Assembly: GCF_001647085.1 (NCBI RefSeq)
Contig: NZ_CP015520.1
Location: 1-64,000 of the forward strand
DNA: 64,000 nucleotides
Origin: Thermococcus piezophilus
GTDB taxonomy: Archaea; Methanobacteriota_B; Thermococci; Thermococcales; Thermococcaceae
Reading direction: 5' to 3'
The notes under the pieces were generated by a model. It saw only the letters and a list, made by a program, of their open reading frames with translations, had not been told where the DNA came from and made no database searches. Of the stretch, positions 8,330-44,945 are shown in pieces. The number at the start of each line of letters is the position of its first letter. Position 1 is the first letter of the stretch. A program made the translations under genes and the position numbers.

Positions 8330-8421
8330 GTTTCCGTAGAACGTAGTCGTGTGGAAAGGTTCCCGGGGGTTTCCTCCCAAAGTGCCGGGGAGGATTCACG
8401 TGGGACAGAATTGTGTCAAAT
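8330..8421 (+). repeat. two degenerate CRISPR repeats flanking one spacer-length gap
   Basis: Positions 8330-8358 are a 29-base repeat of the second variant (GTTTCCGTAGAAC at the start, GTGTGGAAAG at the end). Positions 8394-8421 keep GGGACAGAATTGTGTCAAA, a damaged copy of the array repeat at 22-186. The 35 bases between them have spacer length. The pair sits right after csx1 and just before a cas1 fragment, so it looks like the relic of a second array. Confidence 0.72.
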
Positions 8422-27898: not shown

Positions 27899-28304
27899 TC
27901 GAAAAAATTGTCCTCTCCTACGAGGCCCTCGCGCTTTTCCTCGATTTTCCCCTAAACCCTCTGACGGTTAAGTGCTACGTCGTAGGCCTGACCGCTTTCC
28001 TCATTGGGGATTTCCCTATGGCTCCTCCGCTACCCCCAAATCAGAAGGGCATGAAATGGAAAAGCTCCTGACTTCGGGCTGCTATTCTAGGGTCAGACAT
28101 TCAATATACTCCATTTGGGGTTTCTTTATCGTTCCGGGATTTTCGCTGATGCTTGCAGAACCTCCACCCTTACAGTTCATATATCATATTTGGCTCGCTG
28201 TGGTGAGATTAATATGTGAGGAGGAGAAGGAAATAGAGGAGCGGTTCGGGAATGAGTGGAGAGAGTACACATCAAGAACGCCCAGGTTCATACCGCGGAT
28301 TTAA
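27899..28304 (+). pseudogene. isoprenylcysteine/phospholipid methyltransferase-like membrane protein, broken
   Basis: The C-terminal half is readable from about 28050: LLTSGCYSRVRHSIYSIWGF, then EEEKEIEERFGNEWREYTSR and RFIP, the pattern of the ICMT/PEMT family (GxYxxVRHPxY, then a charged FGxEWxEY tail). The upstream part (VEKIVLSYEALALFLDFPL) is in another frame, so at least one frameshift occurs near 28020-28060. No clear start codon or ribosome binding site remains. The His-Pro of the family reads His-Ser here. Confidence 0.62.
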
Positions 28305-28307
28305 ACT

Positions 28308-28442
28308 CCTGCCAGTTCACCTCTACGTCCTGCTCCACCTGGGAGGGCTGGGGTTGACTACACCAAGATAATGGCCAGGATGACAGAGCTCGACGTTCAG
28401 ACGATTAACGATGCCATAAAAGACCTCATAGAGCTTGGGCTT
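28308..28442 (+). pseudogene. 5' fragment of a DUF2250-like gene
   Basis: Read across one frameshift the strand gives [16 protein letters not shown], then [20 protein letters not shown] and IKDLIELG, which I recognise as the winged-helix start of DUF2250 proteins. It ends abruptly at about 28431-28442, where the opposite strand becomes the coding strand of an ABC ATPase. The rest of the gene appears to have been deleted. Confidence 0.5.
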
Positions 28443-28890
28443 AACGACGAGAGCCCTCGCTATCACCGCCCTCTGCTGCTCGCCGCCACTCAGTGTAGTG
28501 GGCCTCCTGTGGATGAGGTGGTCTATGCCGAGGAGCTTAGCGATGTGGTGAACCTCCTCCCTGATCTTCTCCTTATCTTTCATACGCTTCCTTAATCCAT
28601 GACTATGTTGTCATAGACGCTCATGTGCGGAGAGAGAACGTAGTCCTGATAGACCACGCTGATTCCTCCTCTCTCTAGAGGCAACTCCGTTATGTCCAGC
28701 CCTTCAAGGATTATCTGTCCCTTTTGTGGCTTATAGAAGCCCGCTATTGTCTCCAGGAGTATGGACTTCCCGCTGCCCGTGGGCCCGATTACAGTGACGT
28801 ACTCCCCCGTTCAATATCCAGAGAAACGTCCTCGAGCCTGAACTTTCCCAAGTCGTGCTCAGTTCCCTGATTTCAAGGAACACAGGTACC
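28431..28890 (-). pseudogene. ATP-binding subunit of a molybdate/tungstate-type ABC transporter, broken and truncated
   Basis: On the minus strand the pieces are LEIRELSTTW (start), a P-loop region GPTGSGKS (near 28775), [18 protein letters not shown] and the ABC signature [15 protein letters not shown] (near 28475). They fall in different frames, so several indels are present. The protein stops after VVKPK; the Walker B and the rest are missing because the gene is fused to a DUF2250 fragment. It was the third gene after the binding protein and permease. Confidence 0.82.
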
Positions 28891-29657
28891 ACCCCCAGCT
28901 TTTCGAAAGCAAGAATGGCGAGGAAGGACCCCACTATCAGCAATATGCCACTCGTTATGGCCATCCCTATGTTGCCGTAGGAGCTGTTCAGGTAGAGAGT
29001 CACGGGCAGTATCTCGTGTTCATGTAAGAGCCGCCAGCAAGGATGAGCACGGACCCAAGGCTCCCATGCACCTCGCGAAGGTTATTATGGTAGAAGTAAA
29101 GAGGCCGTTCTTCGCCAGGGGGAGCGTGACGTTTCTAAACGTCTCGAACTCGCGTAGCCGAGGCTCCTAGAGACGAGCTCGTACCTAAAGCTTACCGATT
29201 CAAAGGTTGAGTAGGCTATCCTGGTGGCGTAGGGCAGGGCGGTGAATATCTGGACCACCACGATGCCGAGCTTGGTGAAGACAACTTTAATTCCAAGGCT
29301 CTGAAATGCCTCCCCAACGAGGGTCCTGCCAAAGAGGAGAAGCAGGGCGAGCTCCAGAACCAGCTCTGGAAATGCCATGGAGAGGTCAAGTATCGACTTG
29401 ACAACGCTCTTCCCAGGGAAGGAGAACCTCAAAAGGGCGTATCCTATGGGGATGGCAATGAACATGACGATGACCGTAGAGATGGAAGCCGTCAGAAGGG
29501 ACAGCTTGAGGGAGAAGATCATCTCCTCGGATTTCAGAGCTTCTAATATATCCTCTGGGCCCGGAACAACGAAGAGGGCCACTATGGCCATGAAAAGGAA
29601 GGGGGTAAAAAGGAGGGAAACAGCAATGCAGAGCCCCCTGAAGTTCAGCCCTGCCAT
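28880..29657 (-). pseudogene. permease subunit of a molybdate/tungstate-type ABC transporter, broken
   Basis: ATG 29657 overlaps the end of the binding-protein gene. Membrane segments are clear (VSLLFTPFLFMAIVALFVV; LSMAFPELVLELALLLLFGR), with the inner-membrane EAA-like region ALPYATRIAYSTFES. The frame is lost near 29165 and the last membrane segments (NIGMAITSGILLIVGSFLAI) reappear near 28960 in another frame. Two or more frameshifts, so nonfunctional as written. Confidence 0.82.
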
Positions 29658-30460
29658 GGCCTGAACCCCCACTTCTCAAGACCTCTGCGTGGTTCGCTAT
29701 GAATTCGTTGAAGGCCTTTGCCACCTCCAGGTGCCTGTCATTTTCAGCGCAGGTCGTCACGGCAGTTGGAATGGTCTTTATGATGTTCTGCTCCGGTGGA
29801 ATCTGGATGACCTCGATCTTGCCCTTTGCCTGTGCCCACGTTGTCATGTCCTCCCAGATTATCGCCGCATCTGCCTGCCCAGTGGTGATGTAAATGAGCA
29901 GCTGATTGACCGTTGGCGTAAAAGTCACGACGTTCCTGCTCACGTTCTCCCAGAGGCCGTTATTCTCGAGGATTTTCTTCGCAACTTTGCCTATGGCACA
30001 GGCCTTCGGGTCGCCGAGGACAACCCTAACGCCGGGCTTTGCCAAGTCCTCAAGAGATTGTATCCCTTTGGGGTTTCCGGCTGGAACCGCTATGACCGAA
30101 CGTGCAGGGTGACGTTTCTCAATGTGTCGCTCAGAACGTAGCCCTTCTCTATGCCGACCTGGGTGTAGTCCCAGGCGCTGGGGATAAAGACGTCGCAGCC
30201 GCACGTGGTCTGCAGAATCCCAAAAATCTCGCTGCTCCCACCATAGTGGACTCGACCTCTGCCCCAGTTTCGTTCTCAAACATTCCTATCAGCTCGTTCA
30301 TGGGCTTCATCAAGCCCGCTCCAGAACAGATGACGAGGGTTTTACCCTCAAACTTTTTCGTGCTTGTGCTCGTATTGTCCACCTTTTCGCTAATGCAGAC
30401 ACCTGAAACCACTCCCAGGATTAGGAGTTCACTCAGGAGTAACGCCAAGCGCTCCTTCAC
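29645..30460 (-). pseudogene. periplasmic molybdate/tungstate-binding protein-like gene, broken
   Basis: GTG 30460 begins a lipoprotein-like signal (LALLLSELLILGVVSGVCIS), then the ModA/WtpA-like opening GKTLVICSGAGLMKPMNELI. The frame breaks near 30230-30240 and again near 30120; then VIAVPAGNPKGIQSLEDLAK and TGQADAAIIWEDMTTW follow. A last shift near 29680 restores the normal end (EKWGFRPWQG) at 29645. This was an anion-binding protein, probably for molybdate or tungstate. Confidence 0.82.
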
Positions 30461-30564
30461 GGAAACCACCGCGTGATACACAGGTTTGGGAGAATTTAAA
30501 CATTTTAGGTAAACAATTTCACTAAAGTTAAATGATTTTCTTTGCAAAAAACCCCTCGCAAGGA

Positions 30565-30605
30565 TTAGGGTGACCGAAAAGTTTATAATTGTGTGCATAT
30601 GCACA
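30565..30605 (+). promoter_or_regulatory. composite promoter with two palindromic operators, like 27422-27465
   Basis: TTAGG-GTGA-CCGAA (30565-30578), then AAAGTTTATAATT, then the perfect palindrome TGTGCATATGCACA (30592-30605). The order, spacing (13 against 14 bases) and TATA context match the promoter at 27422-27465. The second palindrome falls between TATA and the expected start of the 30642 gene. The transcript leader carries the strong site GGAGGTGAT. Confidence 0.72.
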
Positions 30606-30641
30606 AATACGTGAAGAACGAATAGTGTGGAGGTGATAAGT

Positions 30642-31190
30642 ATGAGGATTGCGATACCCACCAACGGTGGAGGGCTTGAAGACACGGTCGCCCCTGTCTT
30701 CGCAAGGGCTCCGGCTTTCCTCATAGCAGACGTTGACGAGAACGGCAACATCACGAACAGCAAGGTCATCCAGAACGGTACAGCCATGGCCGGCGGTGGA
30801 GCCGGGCCGATGGCAGTGCAGACCCTCATCAACGAGGGCGTTGAGGCGGTTATAGCGCCACAGGTCGGACCAAATGCGCTCGGTGCCATTCAGGCAGCAG
30901 GAATAAAGCTCTATCAGGTATCCCCAGGAACTCCAGTTGAAGAGGCCATAAAGGCCATTGCCAGTGGAAGTGCTAGCCAGTTCGGCGCTCCTGCTCCAGT
31001 TGTCCCAGCCAGAGCTTACGGACCAGCCTACCCGGTCTACCCCGCTTACGGCTTTGGATGGGGCCGTGGCCGCAGTTGGGGCCGTGGCTGGGGAAGAGGT
31101 GGCAGAGGCTGGGGAGCTCGCCTGGGCTACTGCCCATGGACGGGCCGGCCAAGCAGGAAAACCCCCCGCTGGCTCTACGGCTGGTGGTGA
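30642..31190 (+). CDS. NifX-like FeMo-co-binding-domain protein with Gly/Arg/Trp-rich tail
   Basis: The 182-residue protein opens MRIAIPTNGGGLEDTVAPVF, the typical NifX/NifB-C ligand-binding start, and has GAGPMAVQTLINEGVEAVI. After residue 120 comes a Pro/Tyr-rich linker and a tail of repeated GWGRG/GRGWG units ending in WLYGWW. The domain fold resembles the Desulfovibrio ORP, which carries a Mo-Cu sulfide cluster. Cysteines are nearly absent (one near the end), so any metal cluster would not be held by a Cys motif. Confidence 0.82.
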   Translation: MRIAIPTNGGGLEDTVAPVFARAPAFLIADVDENGNITNSKVIQNGTAMAGGGAGPMAVQTLINEGVEAVIAPQVGPNALGAIQAAGIKLYQVSPGTPVEEAIKAIASGSASQFGAPAPVVPARAYGPAYPVYPAYGFGWGRGRSWGRGWGRGGRGWGARLGYCPWTGRPSRKTPRWLYGWW

Positions 31191-31226
31191 GGCCTTTTTC
31201 TTTATTCTACCTTGGAGGTATGGTAG

Positions 31227-31445
31227 ATGCCGAGGGGAATGGGCAGGGGATACGGTAGAGGCTTCGGCAGGAGTTATTACCTGGGACCCTTTGGCTTCTA
31301 CGGCCTGATAGACCTTCTCCTGCTGATAGGGATCCTCTACCTCCTGGTCAAGCTCTTCATAGTTGCGGCTCCCTACGCGGTTGGTCTTCTGGTTCTGCTA
31401 ATCCTGCGCGAGTTTATGAGACCAAGGTTCTGGAGGTCATTTTGA
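31227..31445 (+). CDS. small Gly/Arg-rich membrane protein of the ORP-like module
   Basis: The 72-residue protein has an N-terminal GMGRGYGRGFGRS segment, then two hydrophobic stretches (YGLIDLLLLIGILYLLVKLF and VGLLVLLILREF). GGAGGT at 31214-31219 precedes the ATG by 7 bases. Its GMGRG start resembles the tail of the NifX-like protein at 31510 and the start of DUF134 at 35512, a low-complexity feature that links these genes. Function unknown. Confidence 0.72.
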   Translation: MPRGMGRGYGRGFGRSYYLGPFGFYGLIDLLLLIGILYLLVKLFIVAAPYAVGLLVLLILREFMRPRFWRSF

Positions 31446-31463
31446 ATTTATTTGAGCTTATGA

Positions 31464-31496
31464 AACTTTTTTAAATTTGGCTTTCCTAATCCTAAC
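31464..31496 (+). promoter_or_regulatory. promoter of the third NifX-like gene with CCTAA half-sites
   Basis: CTTTTTTAAATTT (31467-31479) is a good TATA box. CCTAATCCTAA at 31485-31495 contains two direct copies of the CCTAA arm that forms the palindromes at 27422 and 35953. They sit between TATA and the ribosome binding site. No TGTGCATATGCACA element is present here. Confidence 0.45.
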
Positions 31497-31509
31497 TGGA
31501 GGTGGAAAG

Positions 31510-31923
31510 ATGAGGATAGTAATCTCAACCATAAACGGAGGACTCGACGACAGGGTGAACCAAGCCTTCGGAAGGACTCCCTCTTTCACCATAGTGGACG
31601 TAGAGAACGGAGAGATAACCAACGTCCAGGTCGTCCAGAACCCGGGCTACAGCCAGCCAAGGGGAGCAGGGGTTATCGCGGCCCAGTTCTGTATTGACCA
31701 AGGTGCGGAAGTGGTAATAGCCGGACAGTTCGGGCCGAACTCCTACAACGTTCTCCAGGCTGCAGGCATAAGGATGGTCTCGGCACCTCCGACGATGACC
31801 GTCAAAGAGGCCGTTGAAGCGTTCTTCCGCGGCGAGCTTCAGGGTGCCGTGATGGGCAGAGAAGGCGGCGGAATGGGTCGTGGTATGGGACGTGGCATGG
31901 GGCACGGCAGGGGCGGCTGGTGA
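31510..31923 (+). CDS. NifX-like FeMo-co-binding-domain protein with GMGRG tail
   Basis: The 137-residue protein is a close paralogue of the 30642 product: MRIVISTINGGLDDRVNQAF at the start and VIAAQFCIDQGAEVVIAGQF in the middle. It ends in repeated GMGRG. GGAGGTGG precedes the ATG. A T-rich TATA (CTTTTTTAAATTT, near 31467) precedes it, followed by two direct CCTAA half-sites (31485-31495). Confidence 0.82.
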   Translation: MRIVISTINGGLDDRVNQAFGRTPSFTIVDVENGEITNVQVVQNPGYSQPRGAGVIAAQFCIDQGAEVVIAGQFGPNSYNVLQAAGIRMVSAPPTMTVKEAVEAFFRGELQGAVMGREGGGMGRGMGRGMGHGRGGW

Positions 31924-32392
31924 TTGAACTCTTCCCTTCCTTCATTTCCGATTTCTTAGGACATTAGCCCCCAATCGAGTCCAGCACGTGCCCAACAAGT
32001 TTAATAGCCGGAGTATTGGAATCCCCAATTGGTGGTAGGAGGAACAGAAGGCGGTGGCTCGCGGGTCTTCTTGCCCGCTCATAGCCCAAGGGGTTTTATC
32101 GCTCTACTTCTCAACCGCGACTGGTTTCCAGAGGGAACTTGTCCCCACTACCCCTTGAGCTGTGGTTTTCTTCATAACAGCGAGCGTGGAATGATCCTCA
32201 TGGGCTGGCTCTTGGCGGTGTGGGCAATGAAAACCTTCAGGGGCATTGCCATTCCCAAGTTCATCGACGTCTTGGCATCATAACGGCACTACGTGCTATC
32301 CTAACGCTCAAGCAGAATTCAGACTGACCGATACTCAAAAATGACCCGCAAACCCTCTATTCCTTCCCCACGAGGGTTTTCTGGTGATCCCT
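31924..32392. other. intergenic region without a supported gene
   Basis: About 470 bases between the third NifX-like gene and a broken SDR gene. An open frame of 84 codons (32029-32283) has no ribosome binding site and no recognisable product. I see no repeat, RNA gene or operator here. Confidence 0.4.
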
Positions 32393-33152
32393 ATGCTGGG
32401 CATAGACCTTTCTGGAAAGCTTGCCTTTACAACAGCCTCAAGCAAGAGAATAGGCTTCGGCGTTGCGAGGGTCTTGCCAAGGCAGGAGCTGACGTGATAC
32501 TACTCTCTAGGAGCGAGGAGAGCCTGAAGAGGGCGAAAGAGAAGATAAAGGCCGAGAGCGACGTTAGTGTTAAGTACATAGTGGCCGACCTCACGAAGAT
32601 AGAGGATCTCGAGAGAACGGTAAAAGAGCTTGGAAACATAGGAGAGCCAAAGATATTCTTCTCCATAGGCGGCCCAAAGCCCGGCTACTTCATGGAGATG
32701 GAAATGGTGGACTGGGAAGGAGCTATTAGGCTCTCCTCTATCTAGCAGTCTATCCCACCAAGGCTCTAGTCCCGACGATGGAAAGGAAGGGCTACGGAAG
32801 GATAGTATACTTGACAAGTGTGGCTATAAAGGAGCCCATATCCAACATAGCCTTGAGCAACGTGGTGAGGATTTCCATGGCGGTCTTGTGAGGACTCTGG
32901 CGAAGGAACTCGGGCCGAAGGGGACAACGGTGAACGGCATAATGCCTGGAATAATAAGGACGGACAAGATAATCCAGCTCGCCCATGACAGGGCGAAGAG
33001 GGAAGGAAAGACTGTGAAGGAGGTCCTCCATGAGTATGCGAAGCCAATACCTCTGGAAAGGCTCGGCGAGCCCGAGGAGATAAGCTACCTAGTTGCCCTC
33101 CTCGCAAGCGAGTTTTTCAGTCGACGGTGGAAGGTTGAGCTCGGTGTTTTGA
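32393..33152 (+). pseudogene. short-chain dehydrogenase/reductase, broken
   Basis: ATG 32393 starts LGIDLSGKLAFTTASSKRIG, an SDR opening with the normal Gly-rich loop changed to a Ser/Lys form. Frames change near 32475, 32725 and 32888. Recognisable parts are ADVILLSRSEESLKRAKEKI, PKIFFSIGGPKPG, KGYGRIVYLTSVAIKEP and TVNGIMPGIIRTDKI. The typical end VDGGRLSSVF returns at 33123-33152 after a further shift and a small deletion. Not functional as written. Confidence 0.82.
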
Positions 33153-33295
33153 GAAGCGCTCTTCAGTATGCCTTTCTAGAATACAACACTCTCTTAAAGA
33201 ACTTTTATTGTTTGGGCGGTATATCCTAAACGACGGGAGAGTGCGAATATCTCGTTGATTGGGTCGGCAAAATTTACAGATCATCCATAGAGGAA

Positions 33296-33758
33296 AAATT
33301 TGCTCAGAAAAGACATCACCGTCGATGGTTTTATAAAGCATATAACCCAACTTGTCAAATCAATCAACGCAAAACACTTCGTAATTGATTCTATATCGCC
33401 GCTAACACTCGCATGGAAAAAATTTGACGTTAGATCGATGATGCTGAAGCTCAAGACAGCATTCTCCAACATGAACGTAACCATCCTTCTGATACGTGAA
33501 AACTCCATACGAACTCAGCAAATACCTTGTGGAGGGCTACATTGCCGATGGCATTGTAACCCTTGGTCTCAAGGAAGTAGTGGATGAGGAATGGGTAAAC
33601 TCAAACGCTATTTAGTCGTTAGAAAGATGTGTGGAACACGCCATTCGATGTACAAGTATCCATTCGAGATAACTGAAATGGAAATAATCGTATTTCCCTC
33701 GGGGAAAATCTACCAAGCAAAAGCCAACGATTTTAAAATATTAGAGCCCGATCTCTGA
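33296..33758 (+). pseudogene. C-terminal remnant of a KaiC/RadA-like ATPase
   Basis: ITVDGFIKHITQLVKSINAK, VIDSISPLTLAW and LKTAFSNMNVTILLIREN match the second half of archaeal KaiC-like proteins. The tail (KYLVEGYIADGIVTLGL; MCGTRHSMYKYPFEITEMEI) follows in other frames. The Walker A half is absent. The sequence is more A/T-rich than neighbours. It is a truncated and frameshifted relic. Confidence 0.68.
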
Positions 33759-35405: not shown

Positions 35406-35490
35406 TTTTCTCACCCATCCTATATAGAAGGCACAGGTTATAATCATTACTGGAATGTATGGGACATTAGAAAAAACTATAAACGAATTC

Positions 35491-35510
35491 ACTATCATTG
35501 TGTTGATAGT
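35491..35510 (+). promoter_or_regulatory. inverted repeat directly before the DUF134 gene
   Basis: ACTATCA (35491-35497), six bases, then TGATAGT (35504-35510) form a perfect 7-base inverted repeat ending one base before the ATG at 35512. A TATA-like ACTATAAAC (about 35476-35484) lies upstream. The position suits an autoregulatory operator covering the start site, or a hairpin masking translation. Confidence 0.5.
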
Positions 35511-35511
35511 C

Positions 35512-35868
35512 ATGCCGATGGGAATGGGACGCGGATGGGGTCGTGGCCGGGGAAGGCGGAGAAAGCTCAGGATGATAGGGTTCATTCCCCAGGTTAGACA
35601 TTTCTATCCAGCCATACCCCCCGTTGGACAGCCAAAACCACCCATTTTTATGACTTATGAGGAGTTTGAGGCATTGAGGCTAGTTGATTACGAGGGCCTG
35701 ACCCAGGAGGAGGCAGGAAAGAGGATGGGTGTTTCAAGGGGCACTGTCTGGAGGGCGCTAAGCTCGGCCAGGAAGAAGGTCTCCCAGATGCTAGTTGAGG
35801 GCCGGGAACTCATAATCCTTGCCGAAGGAAATGAGGTCCCCAAGATGGACTCCTCCGAGGGTGAGTGA
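35512..35868 (+). CDS. DUF134 helix-turn-helix protein (possible regulator of the ORP-like genes)
   Basis: The 118-residue protein starts with a GMGRGWGRGRGRRRK basic segment, then PPIFMTYEEFEALRLVDYEG and an HTH of the DUF134/sigma-70 region 4 type (TQEEAGKRMGVSRGTVWRAL). DUF134 genes regularly accompany NifX-like and MinD-ferredoxin genes. No proper ribosome binding site precedes the ATG, so the mRNA may be leaderless or have a very short leader. The shared Gly/Arg segment and location suggest it controls the nearby palindromes; this is inference. Confidence 0.82.
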   Translation: MPMGMGRGWGRGRGRRRKLRMIGFIPQVRHFYPAIPPVGQPKPPIFMTYEEFEALRLVDYEGLTQEEAGKRMGVSRGTVWRALSSARKKVSQMLVEGRELIILAEGNEVPKMDSSEGE

Positions 35869-37344
35869 GCTGGATTTTCAGGCTATTTTGGGCGAATTGG
35901 GTTTTGGTAGCTGTTTTTGTCCGCAAGGGCAGTTTTCTAGCTTTTCACATTTTTAGGTTAGCCTAATTTTTTGTGTTGGTATATCCCTCAAATTCTTCGG
36001 TGAATTATTTCTCAAAGTAATATTAAAATTAGTTATTTTTTATAATATAGTTTTTATTTTTAAGATAAGAATAAGAAAACATAAAATTAATAAAAATTGT
36101 AAAAAGTACTACTTTAAAAAGTTATTAAAACACGCAATAAAATGTTAGAAATTATCAAAAGTTGACCTTACACGAAAGTAAAATTAAACACTAGTGCAAG
36201 ATATAGCAGCCAGAGGATATAGTTAGAGAGCATATACTCAGGGCAAATACTTAACCCCAACTGCATCCAGAAAGATTGTAATTTCTCTGGAAATTTAGGC
36301 TGTATGATGCCGTCTAAACACTCAAATACCTGGTTACAACTTAAGGTAGTTGGAGAGTGTGGACATCGGACTTTATCACGTGAACTTTAAGATCCTTTGG
36401 TGTTCTCATGAAATTGTAGAGCAACACTGCGAAAGGTTAACTTATATTGACGGCACCTCATTAGAGACTAGGGAAATAAAAACAAAGCTTGTGGAGAGGG
36501 ATATATACCACACTAATACTGAGGTGATTCGAAAGTCCCTAGCGCCGTTGGTGTCTTACTGGGGCACCACCTTCATCTAACAAGAACATTCATAGGCCTT
36601 CTTATTCTCCTCCCCCTACGTTCAGAGCTTCGAACTCTAGTATTTGTCCACTCGCTTGCAGCAGGGAATGCCAAAATCAGCGAACATTTATGTGCAGAGG
36701 TTTTAGATATAACATACCTTATATCTAAGATACATGAACAACAAAGTACAATAAGACAATGGCGGGTGAGTAATATGAAGCCACTTCCTAGGGAATGGAC
36801 AACACACCTTAACCTGATTGTTCATATGCAATTAACGTCCATAGAACTAGAGGTAAATGAAGGGGCAAATAAAAGCAACCAGCCAAAACTAAATAACAAA
36901 CCTGCTTAGGTTATCCTGCCCTCACAATGTTCTCCCTAGAACACCATTCTCAAGTTAACATGTGCCTCATACATATTTTTAACTGCAGAAGCCCCGACCT
37001 CACGAACCAAAAATTAGTTACGAGCAAAGGTAGTGGCATCTCTCAGATATTCTCCATTGCAAAAAGGTTGCGTGCTCGGATGTTTACTGGTGATTTACCC
37101 CCAATTCACGAACAATATTTACAAACTTCAAAAGTTAGAAATTGTGATTTGTTTAACATTTTAAAAAAATAAAGAATTAATAGAAGTTAAAATAAAACAA
37201 GCTTAAAAAGTAGAGATTCTAATAAAGAAAAACGTAAAGATTGACCCTAAAATTTGAGAGACACCTCTAAACATAAAGTGAAGAAGTGAAGAATAGCAAA
37301 AGGGAGAATAAAGCCCTAATTATTTAAATACCCATCCACTGACC
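35869..37344. other. AT-rich region without supported genes
   Basis: This 1.5 kb stretch is far more A/T-rich than the rest of the window, above all at 35980-36200 and 37140-37330. Two open frames (36350-36580 and 36927-37172) have neither a ribosome binding site nor recognisable protein features. It contains a TTAGG-N4-CCTAA palindrome at 35953-35966 and a near copy at 36906-36919. It could be the relic of an integrated element, but I found no terminal repeats, integrase or att site. Confidence 0.5.
35953..35966. promoter_or_regulatory. TTAGG-N4-CCTAA palindrome in the AT-rich region
   Basis: TTAGGTTAGCCTAA has the same arms as palindrome 1 of the ORP-like promoters (27422 and 30565). It lies about 85 bases after the DUF134 stop. 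No start codon follows that I can support. Confidence 0.5.
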
Positions 37345-38691
37345 TCATTTTTGCTCCTTCTCCTCTATATGGGCTATTACATTTTCAACTATCTGCGGCG
37401 CGAGGCCTATGTAATTCTCAGGCTTCAGGCTCTCAAAGTCCTCATCACTCAGGAACCTTCTAACTTCTTCGCTCTCCTTAGCCACATCCATCAAGTCCTT
37501 CTTTTCGTAAAAGGCCTTCATGGCAATCTGCCGCACGAGTTCATGAGCCTCCTGCCGCCCCATACCATTTTCGGTGAGCTTGAGCATCAGTGGCTCGGCC
37601 ATCACAAGGTTGTGAGTCATATAGAGGTTGCGCTCTATGTTCTCGGGGAAGAACTCTAAGCCGGAGAGGACCTTCTTCATGCTCTTAAGCATCTCATCAA
37701 GCAGTATAAAGCTCTCTGGAAGGATAACACGCTCAACAGAGGAGTTGGTAAGGTCCCTCTCGTGCCAGAGCGGATTGTTGAGCAGCGCTGGGATAACGTT
37801 GGAGTAGAGGACCCTTGCCAATCCGCTCACCTTTTCGCTCCTTATGGGGTTCCTTTTGTGAGGCATGGTCGAAGAGCCCACCTGCTTTTTCCCGAACGGC
37901 TCGCTGACTTCCAGTATCTCGGTCCTCTGGAGGTTTCTTATTTCAAGGGCAATCTTATCGAGGGTAGAAGCTATCAGGGCCAGAATCATTATGAGCTCCG
38001 CGTAAACGTCGCGTTGGATTATCTGGTTGCTTATCCTTACAGGCTTTAAGCCGAGGTCTTCCATGACGAGGCACTGTATTTCGAGGCCCTTCCCGCCGAA
38101 GGATGCCATGGTTCCAACGGCGCCGCTCATCTGGCCAACCAAGAAGCGTTCCTTTGCTTGCTCAATCCGGTCAATGTGCCGCTGTATCTCATCGAGCCAT
38201 ATGGCGAACTTCATGCCGTAGGTAGTAGGAACAGCGTGCTGCCCGTGGGTTCTACCTATACAAACGGTGTATTTATGCTCCCTAGCGAGGTTCTTGAGAA
38301 TCGAGCGAAGTTCCCTCAAATCCCTAAGAACGATGTCGAGCGATTCCTTTATGAGGAGAGCGTTTGCAGTGTCAATTATATCGTTGGATGTGGCACTAAG
38401 GTGGACGTATTTGCCGTGCTCGCCGCAGACTTCACTCAGGGCTTTAACAACGGCCATTATATCATGGTGTATCTCGGCCTCAATCTCCTTGACGCGCTCA
38501 AGCGTGACCCAATTGGTGTTCGCCCTCTCGCTTATGACCCGAGCACTCTCTTCTGGTATGTTACCAACCCTTGCATGTGCCCTCGCCAACGCTGCCTCAA
38601 CGTCGAGGAGTTTCTGGAGCTTGTTCTTCTCATCCCAGATACGTCTCATTTCTTCACTACCATAGCGGTAATCAATTGGATGAACGGCCAT
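37345..38691 (-). CDS. purB: adenylosuccinate lyase
   Basis: The 448-residue protein shows the fumarase/aspartase superfamily signature SSTMPHKRNPIRSEK and catalytic GRTHGQHAVPTTYG. It splits SAICAR and adenylosuccinate in purine synthesis. The length and MAVHPIDYRYGSEEMRRIWD start are normal for the family. It ends next to the AT-rich region. Confidence 0.97.
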   Translation of the reverse strand: MAVHPIDYRYGSEEMRRIWDEKNKLQKLLDVEAALARAHARVGNIPEESARVISERANTNWVTLERVKEIEAEIHHDIMAVVKALSEVCGEHGKYVHLSATSNDIIDTANALLIKESLDIVLRDLRELRSILKNLAREHKYTVCIGRTHGQHAVPTTYGMKFAIWLDEIQRHIDRIEQAKERFLVGQMSGAVGTMASFGGKGLEIQCLVMEDLGLKPVRISNQIIQRDVYAELIMILALIASTLDKIALEIRNLQRTEILEVSEPFGKKQVGSSTMPHKRNPIRSEKVSGLARVLYSNVIPALLNNPLWHERDLTNSSVERVILPESFILLDEMLKSMKKVLSGLEFFPENIERNLYMTHNLVMAEPLMLKLTENGMGRQEAHELVRQIAMKAFYEKKDLMDVAKESEEVRRFLSDEDFESLKPENYIGLAPQIVENVIAHIEEKEQK

Positions 38692-38837: not shown

Positions 38838-38881
38838 AATAGCCATGAGAAGCTAACGACAAAATTCCGGAGGTGCCAAAG

Positions 38882-39157
38882 ATGGCAGAGGAGCATGTCG
38901 TCTACATCGGAAAGAAGCCGGTTATGAACTACGTCCTGGCCGTCATAACCCAGTTCAATGAGGGTGCTAAGGAAGTTAGCGTCAAGGCTAGGGGAAGGGC
39001 CATCAGCAGGGCTGTCGACGTCGCCGAGATCGTCAGGAACAGGTTCCTTCCAGAGGTCAGGGTCAAGGAGATCAGGATCGGCACCGAGGAGCTTCCGACC
39101 GCTGACGGTAGGACTGCTAACACCTCGACCATCGAGATCGTTCTCGAGAAGCCGTGA
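38882..39157 (+). CDS. albA: chromatin protein Alba
   Basis: The 91-residue basic protein has the Alba fold motifs: [19 protein letters not shown], then [20 protein letters not shown], with the lysine pair K14/K15 that binds nucleic acid. It packs DNA and binds RNA as a dimer. ATG 38882 follows GGAGGTGCCAAAG; an upstream ATG at 38873 is less well placed. Confidence 0.97.
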
Positions 39158-41888: not shown

Positions 41889-41901
41889 CTCTTCTCGTCT
41901 T

Positions 41902-42120
41902 TTACCCCCTCCACGAACACCCCATGAATCTCGCCGAGCTTTTCCTCAAAGATGGTAGTAATAGGTCGAGGAGCTCAAGGGGTTCGAGGCATGGACAGTC
42001 CACGGAATAGGTAAATTCCTCGTCCAAAAAATCGACCTTTATCTCCACACCCTTCTTGTCCTTGCGAGCCGTAAACGGCACTGAGGCCTTATTCCCCGCG
42101 ATTTTGCCCCTCACGAGCAT
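41902..42120 (-). CDS. small protein of unknown function
   Basis: The 72-residue protein (LVRGKIAGNKASVPFTARKD; VDFLDEEFTYSVDCPCLEPL) is preceded by TATA-like CTTTTAATTT about 27 bases upstream of ATG 42120, fitting a leaderless gene. Its last 15 residues read poorly while the next frame continues with EEKLGEIHGVFVEGVKDEK, so a frameshift near 41950 is likely. No family recognised. Confidence 0.5.
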   Translation of the reverse strand: MLVRGKIAGNKASVPFTARKDKKGVEIKVDFLDEEFTYSVDCPCLEPLELLDLLLPSLRKSSARFMGCSWRG

Positions 42121-42182
42121 CGATAATTGAAAAATGGCTCGAAATTAAAAGATTTCTCGAACAAGAGGTTAAGAACCGCTGG

Positions 42183-42998
42183 TTAAAGGGTTTTCTCTAG
42201 GATCAGTGCCCGCTCAGTGTAGCCCCTTCTTTTGTACCAGTCGATGGCAGGGTTGTCCTTTTCCACCCTCAAAGAAACTTTAAGGGCGCCTCGCTTTCTG
42301 GCCCACTCCTCTGCCATTCTCAGCAGGGCAGAGCCAATACCACGGCCTTTGGATTCTTCTCGATGAACGTGTAGAGCCTGTCAACGTTGCTCCATACCTT
42401 TTTTGTGTTGGGCTCGTTCTTCTCAAACCAGCGGTATGCAGGTAAGGCAATCTTCCAGTGACCACCCGATTCATTGAAAAAGAGGGGATAGCCGTCGCAA
42501 CCGAGTTCCTTCATTAGGCCATACTTAGAAGGCTTTCCGTACCTCCACTGAGCATGACGGCGCACTTTTCATAGTCTTGGATAAAATCTATGTCCTCAAG
42601 GGTTATCTCCTCGGCCTCCACCTTTGCCATGGGTTCCGCCATTTCGGGGGTTACCGTTCTAGGTACGAACTCCTCCCTCACGAAGCCCGTTCTCCGGGCA
42701 ATTCTATTGACGAAAATGTCCCTGAAGGTTACGTTCATCATTTCAACGAAAAACCTGAAATCCCTCGCATCGAGGGGAAGCTCGAACCTTATAAGAGGTG
42801 TAAAACCGCTGGTGCGATGCTCATGAGCTTCGCAAACGGCTCTATCCTGGGGATTTTCTCCTGGTAACTATGGATGAGCTTAAACTCAAGTTCCTTTCCA
42901 TCGAGACCGAAGCGGTAAATCGAGCTTACTTGTTTTCTCCTAATCTTGGGGCTCTCCAAAAGGATATAGTCAAAACATTTAAGGTCAGGGAGCGACAA
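42183..42998 (-). pseudogene. GNAT-family N-acetyltransferase, broken
   Basis: The pieces on the minus strand are DYILLESPKIRRKQVSSIYR (start), FRDIFVNRIARRTGFVREEF (middle) and a clear GNAT end: IGSALLRMAEEWARKRGA then VEKDNPAIDWYKRRGYTERA. They lie in at least three frames, with breaks near 42800, 42555 and 42350. It follows the DUF1611 pseudogene on the same strand. Substrate unknown. Confidence 0.75.
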
Positions 42999-44068
42999 GA
43001 GCCCCCACCTCCTCCGTGGTTCTAGGCTTTCCCTCTGCGTCGTCGAGTATCATCCTGGCAATGTCTTCTACCTCCTCATATAGCGGAACCCTCGTCAGTA
43101 TGCCGTAGGTTTCCTCTATCTCCCTCGCCTTCTCCAAAGCTTCTTCCCTCGTGAGTCCTTGGGAGTTTATCGTTATGGCGATTGGCCTTCTACCCGAGAG
43201 CAGTTCCACGAGCTGAATATACCTGTCCAGCGGCGGTAGGGGATACTGCGGAAAATCGTCGAAGCTCTTCCTAGCTGGAGCGTGCTGAAGGACGATATAA
43301 TCGGGCCTTCCAGCAGCTATCAGCTCGAAACCGCAGGGATATGCCGGATGGAGCAGAGAACCTTCCCGTGGGTCACTATAACGTCGGTCTCTCCTCGGCC
43401 CATGCCCTCCAGATAACGTCCTCTATCGCTCCTGCAACGAAATCGTTGATTATGGAGTCCATAACTATCGTGTACCTGAAGCCCTGCATCCACCCAGTCT
43501 GACCCATGGCGACGAAACTGCTCTTCTTTCCGAGCTTTTCAAATGCCTCCTGGAGCATTATGGCCGTCGTCCTTTTCCCTATAGCCGCATCGGTTCCAAG
43601 AACGGCCACGTTAATTAAGGAAACCTCCTCTATCTTACCGGTGAAGGATATCCTCAGGTTGTAGAACATCTTCCTGACGTCTATCAGCTCGACTCCATAC
43701 CTCTTCGCCAGCCGTTTGAGATAGGGTCATCGCTCAGAAAGCTGTGGAGTCCGCTGATGATGCTCAGTCCCCTCCGTATGGCCTTGTGACTACCCTTCTG
43801 TAATCGGGGGAAGGTAACCGCCAGGGGTGGCAACGCCGATTATTAGATAACCCACACCAGGATTCTCAGCTAATGCGTTGTCCAATGTTACGTAGATGGG
43901 AATGCCCCTCCTGATGCCGTCTAGAACCTCACCGGCGTCCCTTTCCGCGAGGGTCGAGTCCACGAGGTCCACAATCCTAAACCTTCTGGAGTACCTCACC
44001 AATCCATGCGCGGTCTTTCCATCCGTTGACAGATATCGCTCTTCTGTCAAGAGTAGGGCCTCTTCCAT
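42985..44068 (-). pseudogene. DUF1611 (DgcN-like) ATP-binding protein, broken
   Basis: ATG 44068 follows GGAGGTGTAAAG. Recognisable parts: TLAERDAGEVLDGIRRGIPI (N-terminal domain), then after breaks LGTDAAIGKRTTAIMLQEAF with the P-loop, FVAMGQTGWMQGFRYTIVMD, and VELLSGRRPIAITINSQGLT to the end at 42985. Frames change near 43790, 43670, 43380 and 43210. DUF1611 proteins are often paired with dipeptide epimerases or amino-acid racemisation; here the neighbours are a PLP enzyme and a GNAT, also broken. Confidence 0.75.
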
Positions 44069-44071
44069 TCT

Positions 44072-44945
44072 TTACACCTCCAGTAACCATGAGAACGAAG
44101 TTCTTTACGTTAACACCAAACTTTCTCACGAACTTTACCAGTCCCGCGAGGGTAAGTGGAGACGCCGGTAGGGCGTTTATCCCAACCCCCTTCAGGAGGG
44201 ATGCGTAATACAGTGCGGTATCATCCGCAAAACCGAAGACGTATCCCCAGACTCGTTCACTGCTTTGAGGACCGCATCTCTGTCAAAGGAAACGATGGAG
44301 ACAAGGGGCTCGTTAAATTCGATCTCGGTGAAGTCATTCCCATCGACCCCGTAGAACTCCCGAAGAACTTGGTTTCCAAAGCTGGTGGTCACCCCAACTA
44401 TCCTCGGTTTCAGGCCGAGCGCTTTAAAGCCATAATGAATGCCTTAAAGTGTTGTACCGTTTCCAACTGGAACAAAGACGGCATAGGGATTTATTCTCAA
44501 CGCTATTTCCTTCGCTATCTCAGCATAGCCAGGTTAGCCTACCTCGGGATGGCTTCCGGGGTTGGCGTCATAGAGACCTTTTTTCAACAGCGAATGTCCT
44601 GCTCTCCAGGACGGCCTTCTCATATGGCCCGTGAACTGGGATTATCCTTGCACCGTACCTTAGCATCTCCTCAGAGCGCCTGAGGGTGTAGCTGGCAGGG
44701 ACGAAGATGTAAGCCTTGAGGCCGAACAGCCGCGCGTAGTAAGCCAATGCGACACCGTAGTTTCCACAGGTTCCAGCCGTAATGACAGAGAACCCCAGTG
44801 TCTTAGCGGTTTCGACATGAAGCCTGGCTCTTCTGTCCTTGTGGGTTTCAGTGGGGTTCCTCCCCTCAAATTTCACGAATATTTTTGAAATACCGGAGAG
44901 ATCTTCGAGAGCTGGCACCCTCATGAGGGGGGCCCTCGTCGTCAT
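44072..44945 (-). pseudogene. threonine synthase-like PLP (fold type II) enzyme, broken
   Basis: The start MTTRAPLMRVPALEDL leads to KFEGRNPTETHKDRRA, with the PLP lysine in THKDR, and the ligand loop TAGTCGNYGVALAYY. Frames change near 44580 and again near 44400 and 44230, giving IALRINPYAVFVPVGNGTT, VTTSFGNQVLREFYGV and ASPLTLAGLVKFVRKFG. The gene overlaps the start of the DUF1611 pseudogene, with which it formed an operon. It may have been a threonine synthase paralogue or a serine/threonine dehydratase. Confidence 0.78.

Follow-up and report, generated by a model that had tools for sequence, protein, structure and literature searches.

In Thermococcales, dif is a single intergenic site made up of two 11-bp arms, which form an imperfect inverted repeat, and a 6-bp spacer between them (Cortez et al. 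2010; PMC2958812, accessible parts). It has AT-rich mirrored flanks of ~23 bp and lies 120–142 degrees from oriC, the recombinase XerA being encoded away from it, and the XerA of P. abyssi recombines dif in vitro (same parts of PMC2958812). The locus described here lies in a 64,000-nucleotide stretch of DNA from Thermococcus piezophilus, the whole of which was analysed and is referred to as the window. It is like the published system in its arms, spacer, single intergenic copy, flanks, angle to oriC and distant XerA gene. Bacterial Xer recombination also makes use of accessory sites, and at cer and psi this accessory DNA is one-sided, close to the core and bound by PepA/ArgR/ArcA. The likeness is that of a recombination core with additional conserved DNA beside it; however, the arms reported below are two-sided and stand 200–1,000 bp from the core. 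Integrative mobile elements exploiting Xer (IMEX) are another point of comparison, as some relatives of the window carry genes next to dif and have the adjoining arm altered, but no second dif or known mobility gene accompanies them, and the window is without such genes. Closer to the present case is a reported SMC/TrmBL2 domain boundary at the same locus in a congener, T. kodakarensis, where Yamaura et al. (2025) reportedly found that SMC is stalled at dif by TrmBL2. TrmBL2 forms stiff filaments on DNA (PMC4877046, accessible parts), and cer and psi are mentioned in the accessible parts of PMC2958812.

The interval of interest, 35869–37344 (1,476 bp), begins directly 3′ of the stop of a DUF134-like gene and ends directly before the stop of purB. 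Its neighbours and AT-rich borders are as follows.

35455–35868, plus strand: left neighbour, encoding a DUF134-like predicted DNA-binding protein (NCBIfam PRK04217)
37345–38691, minus strand: right neighbour, purB, encoding adenylosuccinate lyase (TIGR00928, 606.9 bits)
35931–36230, no strand: left AT-rich border, 23.7% G+C, the lowest 300-bp window in 364 kb sampled from the chromosome; likewise in relatives
37091–37390, no strand: right AT-rich border, extending into the end of purB, 28.7% G+C, the third lowest 300-bp window in the 364 kb

The initial annotation had described this interval as a 1.5-kb AT-rich desert between an ORP module and purB in which no gene was supported. The limits that it gave are right. 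G+C is 36% vs ~52%, the borders are among the extremes of the sampled chromosome, and the 1-kb bin 36001–37000, at 36.4%, is the lowest in the window. No ORF of at least 100 aa is found across 35869–37344, which is an exact ORF-free interval in the 264 kb around the window; it is the fifth longest such stretch within these 264 kb, so its length alone is not unique. It contains only two ORFs of at least 60 aa (76 and 81 aa); neither is matched by a Pfam family or has a homologue in the congener stretches (best E 0.018), and no conserved protein match was obtained for the desert. An Rfam scan returned no family at the gathering score and nothing credible at E ≤5. Neither a conserved gene nor a conserved RNA, which the initial annotation had regarded as incompatible with its view, was found by profile or Rfam search. 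Other irregular stretches are present in the same DNA. Several genes appear to be in pieces and in different frames at 28000–33400 and 41889–44155 of the window, as pseudogenes or through assembly frameshifts, and 41889–44155 contains no ORF of at least 100 aa. Farther along the chromosome, an ORF-free stretch of 2,687 bp (G000:C1, ~1881892–1884578) includes the 300-bp window that ranks second lowest in G+C among the 364 kb sampled. Just past purB lies an Alba chromatin-protein gene (38873–39157, plus strand); together with the DUF134 gene, it makes two genes for DNA-binding proteins near dif.

Operator-like palindromes had also been noted in the desert, and the main one corresponds, on strong homology, to an archaeal dif site. 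Its parts are listed below.

36702–36729, no strand: predicted dif core, with arm TTTAGATATAA at 36702–36712, spacer CATACC at 36713–36718 and arm TTATATCTAAG at 36719–36729
36678–36701 (limits approximate), no strand: left proximal dif flank; family consensus AATG-N8-TGTAC..., weakly matched in the window
36730–36755 (limits approximate), no strand: right proximal dif flank; family consensus ...GNACA...ATG..CATT

The core is an inverted repeat of 11-6-11 bp, laid out as in the published archaeal XerA/dif site. The arms are both unaltered in the window; its spacer, CATACC, is not the TGTACC/GGTACA most often seen. Across the 1,928,800-bp contig, TTNGATATAAN6TTATATCNAA is matched exactly only once, the two next-best places having 3 mismatches; a single intergenic copy in the chromosome is what is known for Thermococcales dif. 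The proximal flanks appear as conserved, mirror-image columns in an alignment of 32 loci, the individual match of the window being weak. The palindrome near 36.7 kb was checked against the accessible parts of PMC2958812, and the dif flanks of the 32 loci agree with the short AT-rich flanks published there.

Only one orc1/cdc6 match above the family cut-off was detected in the chromosome, at 722,723, and it was taken as the oriC marker. The distance from dif to this gene is 686 kb, or 128 degrees, which is inside the published 120–142 range and places dif in the terminus half of the chromosome. Skew and origin mapping had been proposed in the initial annotation. The TGGT skew flips from −0.25 to +0.22 around orc1/cdc6; at dif, polarized 4-mer skew was followed through the 264 kb around the window (100 kb either side) and does not clearly turn. 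The skew peak of T. kodakarensis is likewise broad (PMC2958812, accessible parts). The XerA gene lies away from dif, as a 286-aa frame at 122,780–123,637 encoding a tyrosine recombinase, and its product aligns over nearly its full length with P. abyssi XerA (4a8e, 414 bits). A second tyrosine recombinase fragment, with internal stops, is found at G000:C1:1003280–1003450 on the minus strand and is likely the relic of an integrated element. The genome also has 23 TrmB-domain matches, which are candidate TrmBL2 orthologs.

Searches with the desert DNA in 61 genomes gave a match in 15, the window's own included. Two parts drew most of the matches, namely the palindrome near 36.7 kb and the AT-rich DNA that follows the DUF134 gene, and the matches mostly adjoin the DUF134 gene or purB in their own genome. 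For the comparison with relatives that had been recommended, purB-downstream DNA was also fetched from 33 congeners. A dif-like site (at most 4 mismatches) stands beside purB in 32 of these 33 stretches; the remaining one is cut off by the end of its contig after 424 bp. Of the 32 dif-bearing stretches, 22 have the DUF134 gene as the opposite limit, and there the desert measures 1,104–1,881 bp; in the other 10 this gene is out of reach, yet dif still adjoins purB. Left-side synteny, and with it the left neighbour, changes in several genomes, and dif remains beside purB. G+C averaged over the loci is ~27–30% at the borders (mean ~28%) and ~47% in the core around dif, with the AT-rich dif in the middle. 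Across the family, a dif match with at most 2 mismatches was obtained in 80 of 94 genomes, in a few of them (e.g. G030 and G031) at other places. As for a second dif in the congener loci, only matches with 4 mismatches were detected, in two loci other than the window, and none at a far end. Two sites at the dif position, L175:2533–2558 and L063:1083–1108, have both arms altered (TGTCATATAA...) and are each 4 mismatches from the pattern.

Beyond the proximal flanks, two longer motifs were found through a k-mer comparison against simulated sequences and were then refined as matrices. These position weight matrices (PWMs) were trained on 33 loci including the window, and the window was rescanned with matrices trained without it. 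Motif A, CAAAATTNGGTTACAATTAAAGGTGGT, is present in 32 of the 33 loci and missing in L069, while motif B, TTATCTCTCAAATTTTTGGGTGAATTNTTAC, is present in 28 and was not found in L064, L074, L075, L076 and L079. The sites in the window are the following.

35977–36011, plus strand: left motif B, directed toward dif; PWM score 34.4 bits, 30.1 without the window in training; pattern match at 35983 with 2 mismatches
36324–36358, plus strand: left motif A, directed toward dif; PWM score 27.5 bits, 24.3 without the window in training
37008–37042, plus strand: right motif A, directed away from dif (the less common orientation); PWM score 28.7 bits, 25.5 without the window in training; pattern match with 2 mismatches
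37234–37268, minus strand: right motif B, directed toward dif; PWM score 34.4 bits, 29.7 without the window in training; missed by the 3-mismatch pattern scan

Only these four sites reach 12 bits for A or B in 364 kb of chromosome. Near the island edges, B is on the plus strand at the left and on the minus strand at the right and points inward on both sides, with the exception of a weak match in L077 that is directed away from dif. A lies between B and dif; it is always on the plus strand at the left, and at the right it is on the minus strand in most loci and on the plus strand in the rest, the window included. B and A are ~315 bp apart: the spacing is 311–350 bp in all 11 left arms measured, whereas right arms range over 226–445 bp, with 17 of 20 at 286–356 bp. 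Each arm has an AT-rich stretch between the two motifs, and the arrangement is usually mirrored across dif. Two B and two A sites surround dif in L059, which presumably is T. kodakarensis.

When 94 family genomes were scanned at up to 3 mismatches, 62 B and 64 A matches were retrieved, at most two of each per genome; the reversed-pattern control gave 10 for B and 0 for A, and 46 of the 94 genomes had no B match at this threshold. Distances to dif were compared for the matches of the window's genus (55 of the 62 B and 57 of the 64 A). Forty-eight of the 55 B matches are on a contig with a called dif, and all 48 lie at most 2.7 kb from it and point inward. Three of the remaining seven are on contigs without a called dif, and four are in genomes without one. 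Loci read separately placed the B matches of G030 and G095 at a more diverged dif, and G117 has one B match and no dif within its 5.5 kb. Among the A matches, 54 of 57 are within 1.2 kb of dif (40 inward and 14 outward). Loci outside the genus (g11–g15), and a further set of loci, were selected because they held a match to A, B, dif or the small gene, and the rates among them do not represent whole genera: L179 (g11) has both arms, six of six g14 loci have A and at least one B, and the g13 loci match A and B more weakly. No B was detected in the five loci examined from a genus that we take to be Pyrococcus, four of which have an A-like match 100–150 bp from dif.

That the A/B arms are conserved and tied to dif is well supported by these sequence comparisons. 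As far as our searches reach, A and B are newly found here, whereas dif itself is a known kind of site. The literature on archaeal dif (purB, accessory sequences, SMC/TrmBL2, Hi-C boundary and termination) yielded no title or abstract that describes A or B, which makes for a weak absence. The accessible parts of PMC2958812 describe the short flanks and make no mention of distant A/B motifs, of a desert of 1.1–1.9 kb or of a gene cassette.

We consider it very probable that the desert is a chromosome-dimer resolution (dif) locus with accessory arms. This reading follows from the single 28-bp site, the XerA gene elsewhere in the chromosome, the angle of 128 degrees, the genus-wide conservation of both site and desert, and the sets of flanking motifs. 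Weighing against it are the lack of a clear skew turn at dif, the deviating spacer, the outward right A of the window, and arms that seem degenerate or dispensable in places, as shown by the loci and genomes where A or B was missed and by the B of G117. By extension of the published P. abyssi work, XerA subunits would bind the two 11-bp arms and bring together the two dif copies that a chromosome dimer carries; strand exchange at the spacer would then restore monomers. We infer that A, the AT-rich stretch and B form the accessory DNA of the dif locus. These arms would load a protein, for which TrmBL2 seems the most likely candidate; the AT-rich tracts, set between motifs at fixed places about dif, would be suited to TrmBL2-type loading. 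Once loaded, the protein would exclude genes and mark dif as a chromosome boundary, or it would steer recombination toward resolution without FtsK. Archaea resolve dimers without FtsK, and what cues XerA in timing and direction is a question raised by its discoverers. Oriented motif sets that are almost confined to dif offer named DNA targets for this question and for that of the dif boundary.

In some relatives, genes are present next to dif in positions that bear on this interpretation.

L185:3590–4691, L188:2787–3954, L171:1689–2849 and L003:1860–2285, reading away from dif: small-gene family next to dif, in some genomes behind a nuclease-like gene; gene-side arm altered

The small gene (~116–150 aa) occurs in 21 of 94 genomes, the present one not among them, and adjoins dif in every case where dif can be seen. 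Of the loci with the gene or a relic of it, 23 show dif, and in all 23 it is directed away from dif at a distance of 6–814 bp. Broken copies were found in L061, L071, L066 and L182. A second gene (gene 2; ~240 aa), whole or as a piece, lies between dif and the small gene in eight of the 94 genomes and is absent from this window. No Pfam, PHROG or PADLOC family was found for the small protein, nor any match to plasmids, phages or viral contigs. PHROGs and PADLOC gave nothing for gene 2 either, one PHROG at E 0.089 being the sole near-match in these searches of the two proteins. Gene 2 probably encodes a PD-(D/E)XK nuclease: D167, E178 and K180 are invariant in six of six sequences, and the order of helices and strands fits this fold. 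Its Pfam hits are all below cut-off and no fold match is significant, the best one (Z 5.8) being to an amidohydrolase over 63 residues, with EcoRII, EcoRV and NucC at Z 4.0–4.2; one of five models was above pLDDT 36. For the fold of the small protein, Foldseek returned nothing at E ≤0.001, and the VIA-align matches stayed below the trusted level (best Z 5.1 with a SaPI replication protein, 3.8 Å over 90 residues; Z 4.4 with a relaxosome accessory protein; LAGLIDADG rows at most 3.6). The cassette copy of G079 (g1) is 85–88% identical to the g14 copies, which suggests, from sequence likeness, an exchange at the dif locus.

Of the dif arms that face the gene, 19 of 23 are altered, versus 5 of 93 other arms (Fisher 1e-13, with related genomes treated as independent; 58 loci, leaving out L070, L184 and L228, where dif is not in view). 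Altered arms mostly have TGTCATATAA or TTTCCTATAA replacing TTRGATATAA. The cassette and the altered dif arm suggest that dif is also targeted by selfish or guarding genes. The motifs too keep certain distances from the gene: of 19 loci, 6 have an A (at least 16 bits) starting within 21 bp of the small-gene stop, and 11 have a B 297–347 bp beyond that stop, three of these scoring below 20 bits. A possible but clearly less probable explanation, and the main rival, is that the arms are footprints of a dif-targeting cassette, comprising a small DNA-binding-like protein and sometimes a nuclease-like gene, which was inserted either way and later decayed. A and B would then be the 3′ end of the cassette and the desert its graveyard, dif itself being real. 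The frequency of both genes at the same loci, their outward direction, the altered arms, the distances of A and B from the stop and the broken copies all speak for it. However, the window has neither gene nor relic. A scores mostly 30–46 bits in gene-less arms and at most 34.7 beside an intact small gene, which indicates that A and B are retained without the gene, and no second dif is present at the far end. A decayed small gene in the window was considered and rejected, since the HMM search for a relic gave a best E of 9.2. The rapidly decaying genes suspected in the initial annotation have indirect support from some relatives, in which this place is occupied by the small gene, whole or broken, at times along with the nuclease-like gene; the window shows no such relic.

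Within the reading as a dif locus with accessory arms, a bolder proposal, which we regard as unlikely, would combine these observations. The mirrored B-A-dif-A-B element of 1.1–1.9 kb would be an archaeal substitute for control of the FtsK/KOPS type, or a two-sided SMC roadblock, and in some lineages a dif-homing nuclease cassette would prey on it, rewriting the adjacent arm and so escaping its own cut.

Alternatively, the desert could serve purB and the DUF134 gene as control DNA or as their 3′ ends, or it could code for an RNA, with B as a terminator, but we find this improbable. The window and most congeners have both neighbours converging on the desert, with B ~75–100 bp past their stops, and AT-rich borders suit archaeal terminators. 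Yet nothing in Rfam matches the desert, A and B are nearly confined to the surroundings of dif, and the left neighbour varies while dif stays by purB. In g14 (L171 and L185) and in L179, moreover, the gene adjoining B reads outward from the island. The direction of B thus follows dif rather than the adjoining gene, and a role of B as terminator or 3′ UTR was rejected on this basis.

A remnant of an integrated plasmid or virus, another origin put forward in the initial annotation, is very improbable. An AT-rich, gene-free stretch with left synteny shifting in several genomes would agree with it; nevertheless, the desert DNA had no match when searched against plasmids (72,556 records) and phages (50,697 records), it contains one dif only and no integrase gene, att-like duplication or long repeats, and its architecture is kept at the same place across the genus. 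The desert can hardly be a second replication origin, AT-rich and gene-free island with repeats though it is, as the lone orc1/cdc6 above cut-off is 686 kb off and the skew turns there and not at the desert. A replication or regulatory island was the closest of the three guesses made initially, in that the desert would serve chromosome maintenance, as a dif locus within the terminus half. Elsewhere in the window, a lone CRISPR repeat match (Rfam CRISPR-DR41) was detected at 8330–8358 on the minus strand.
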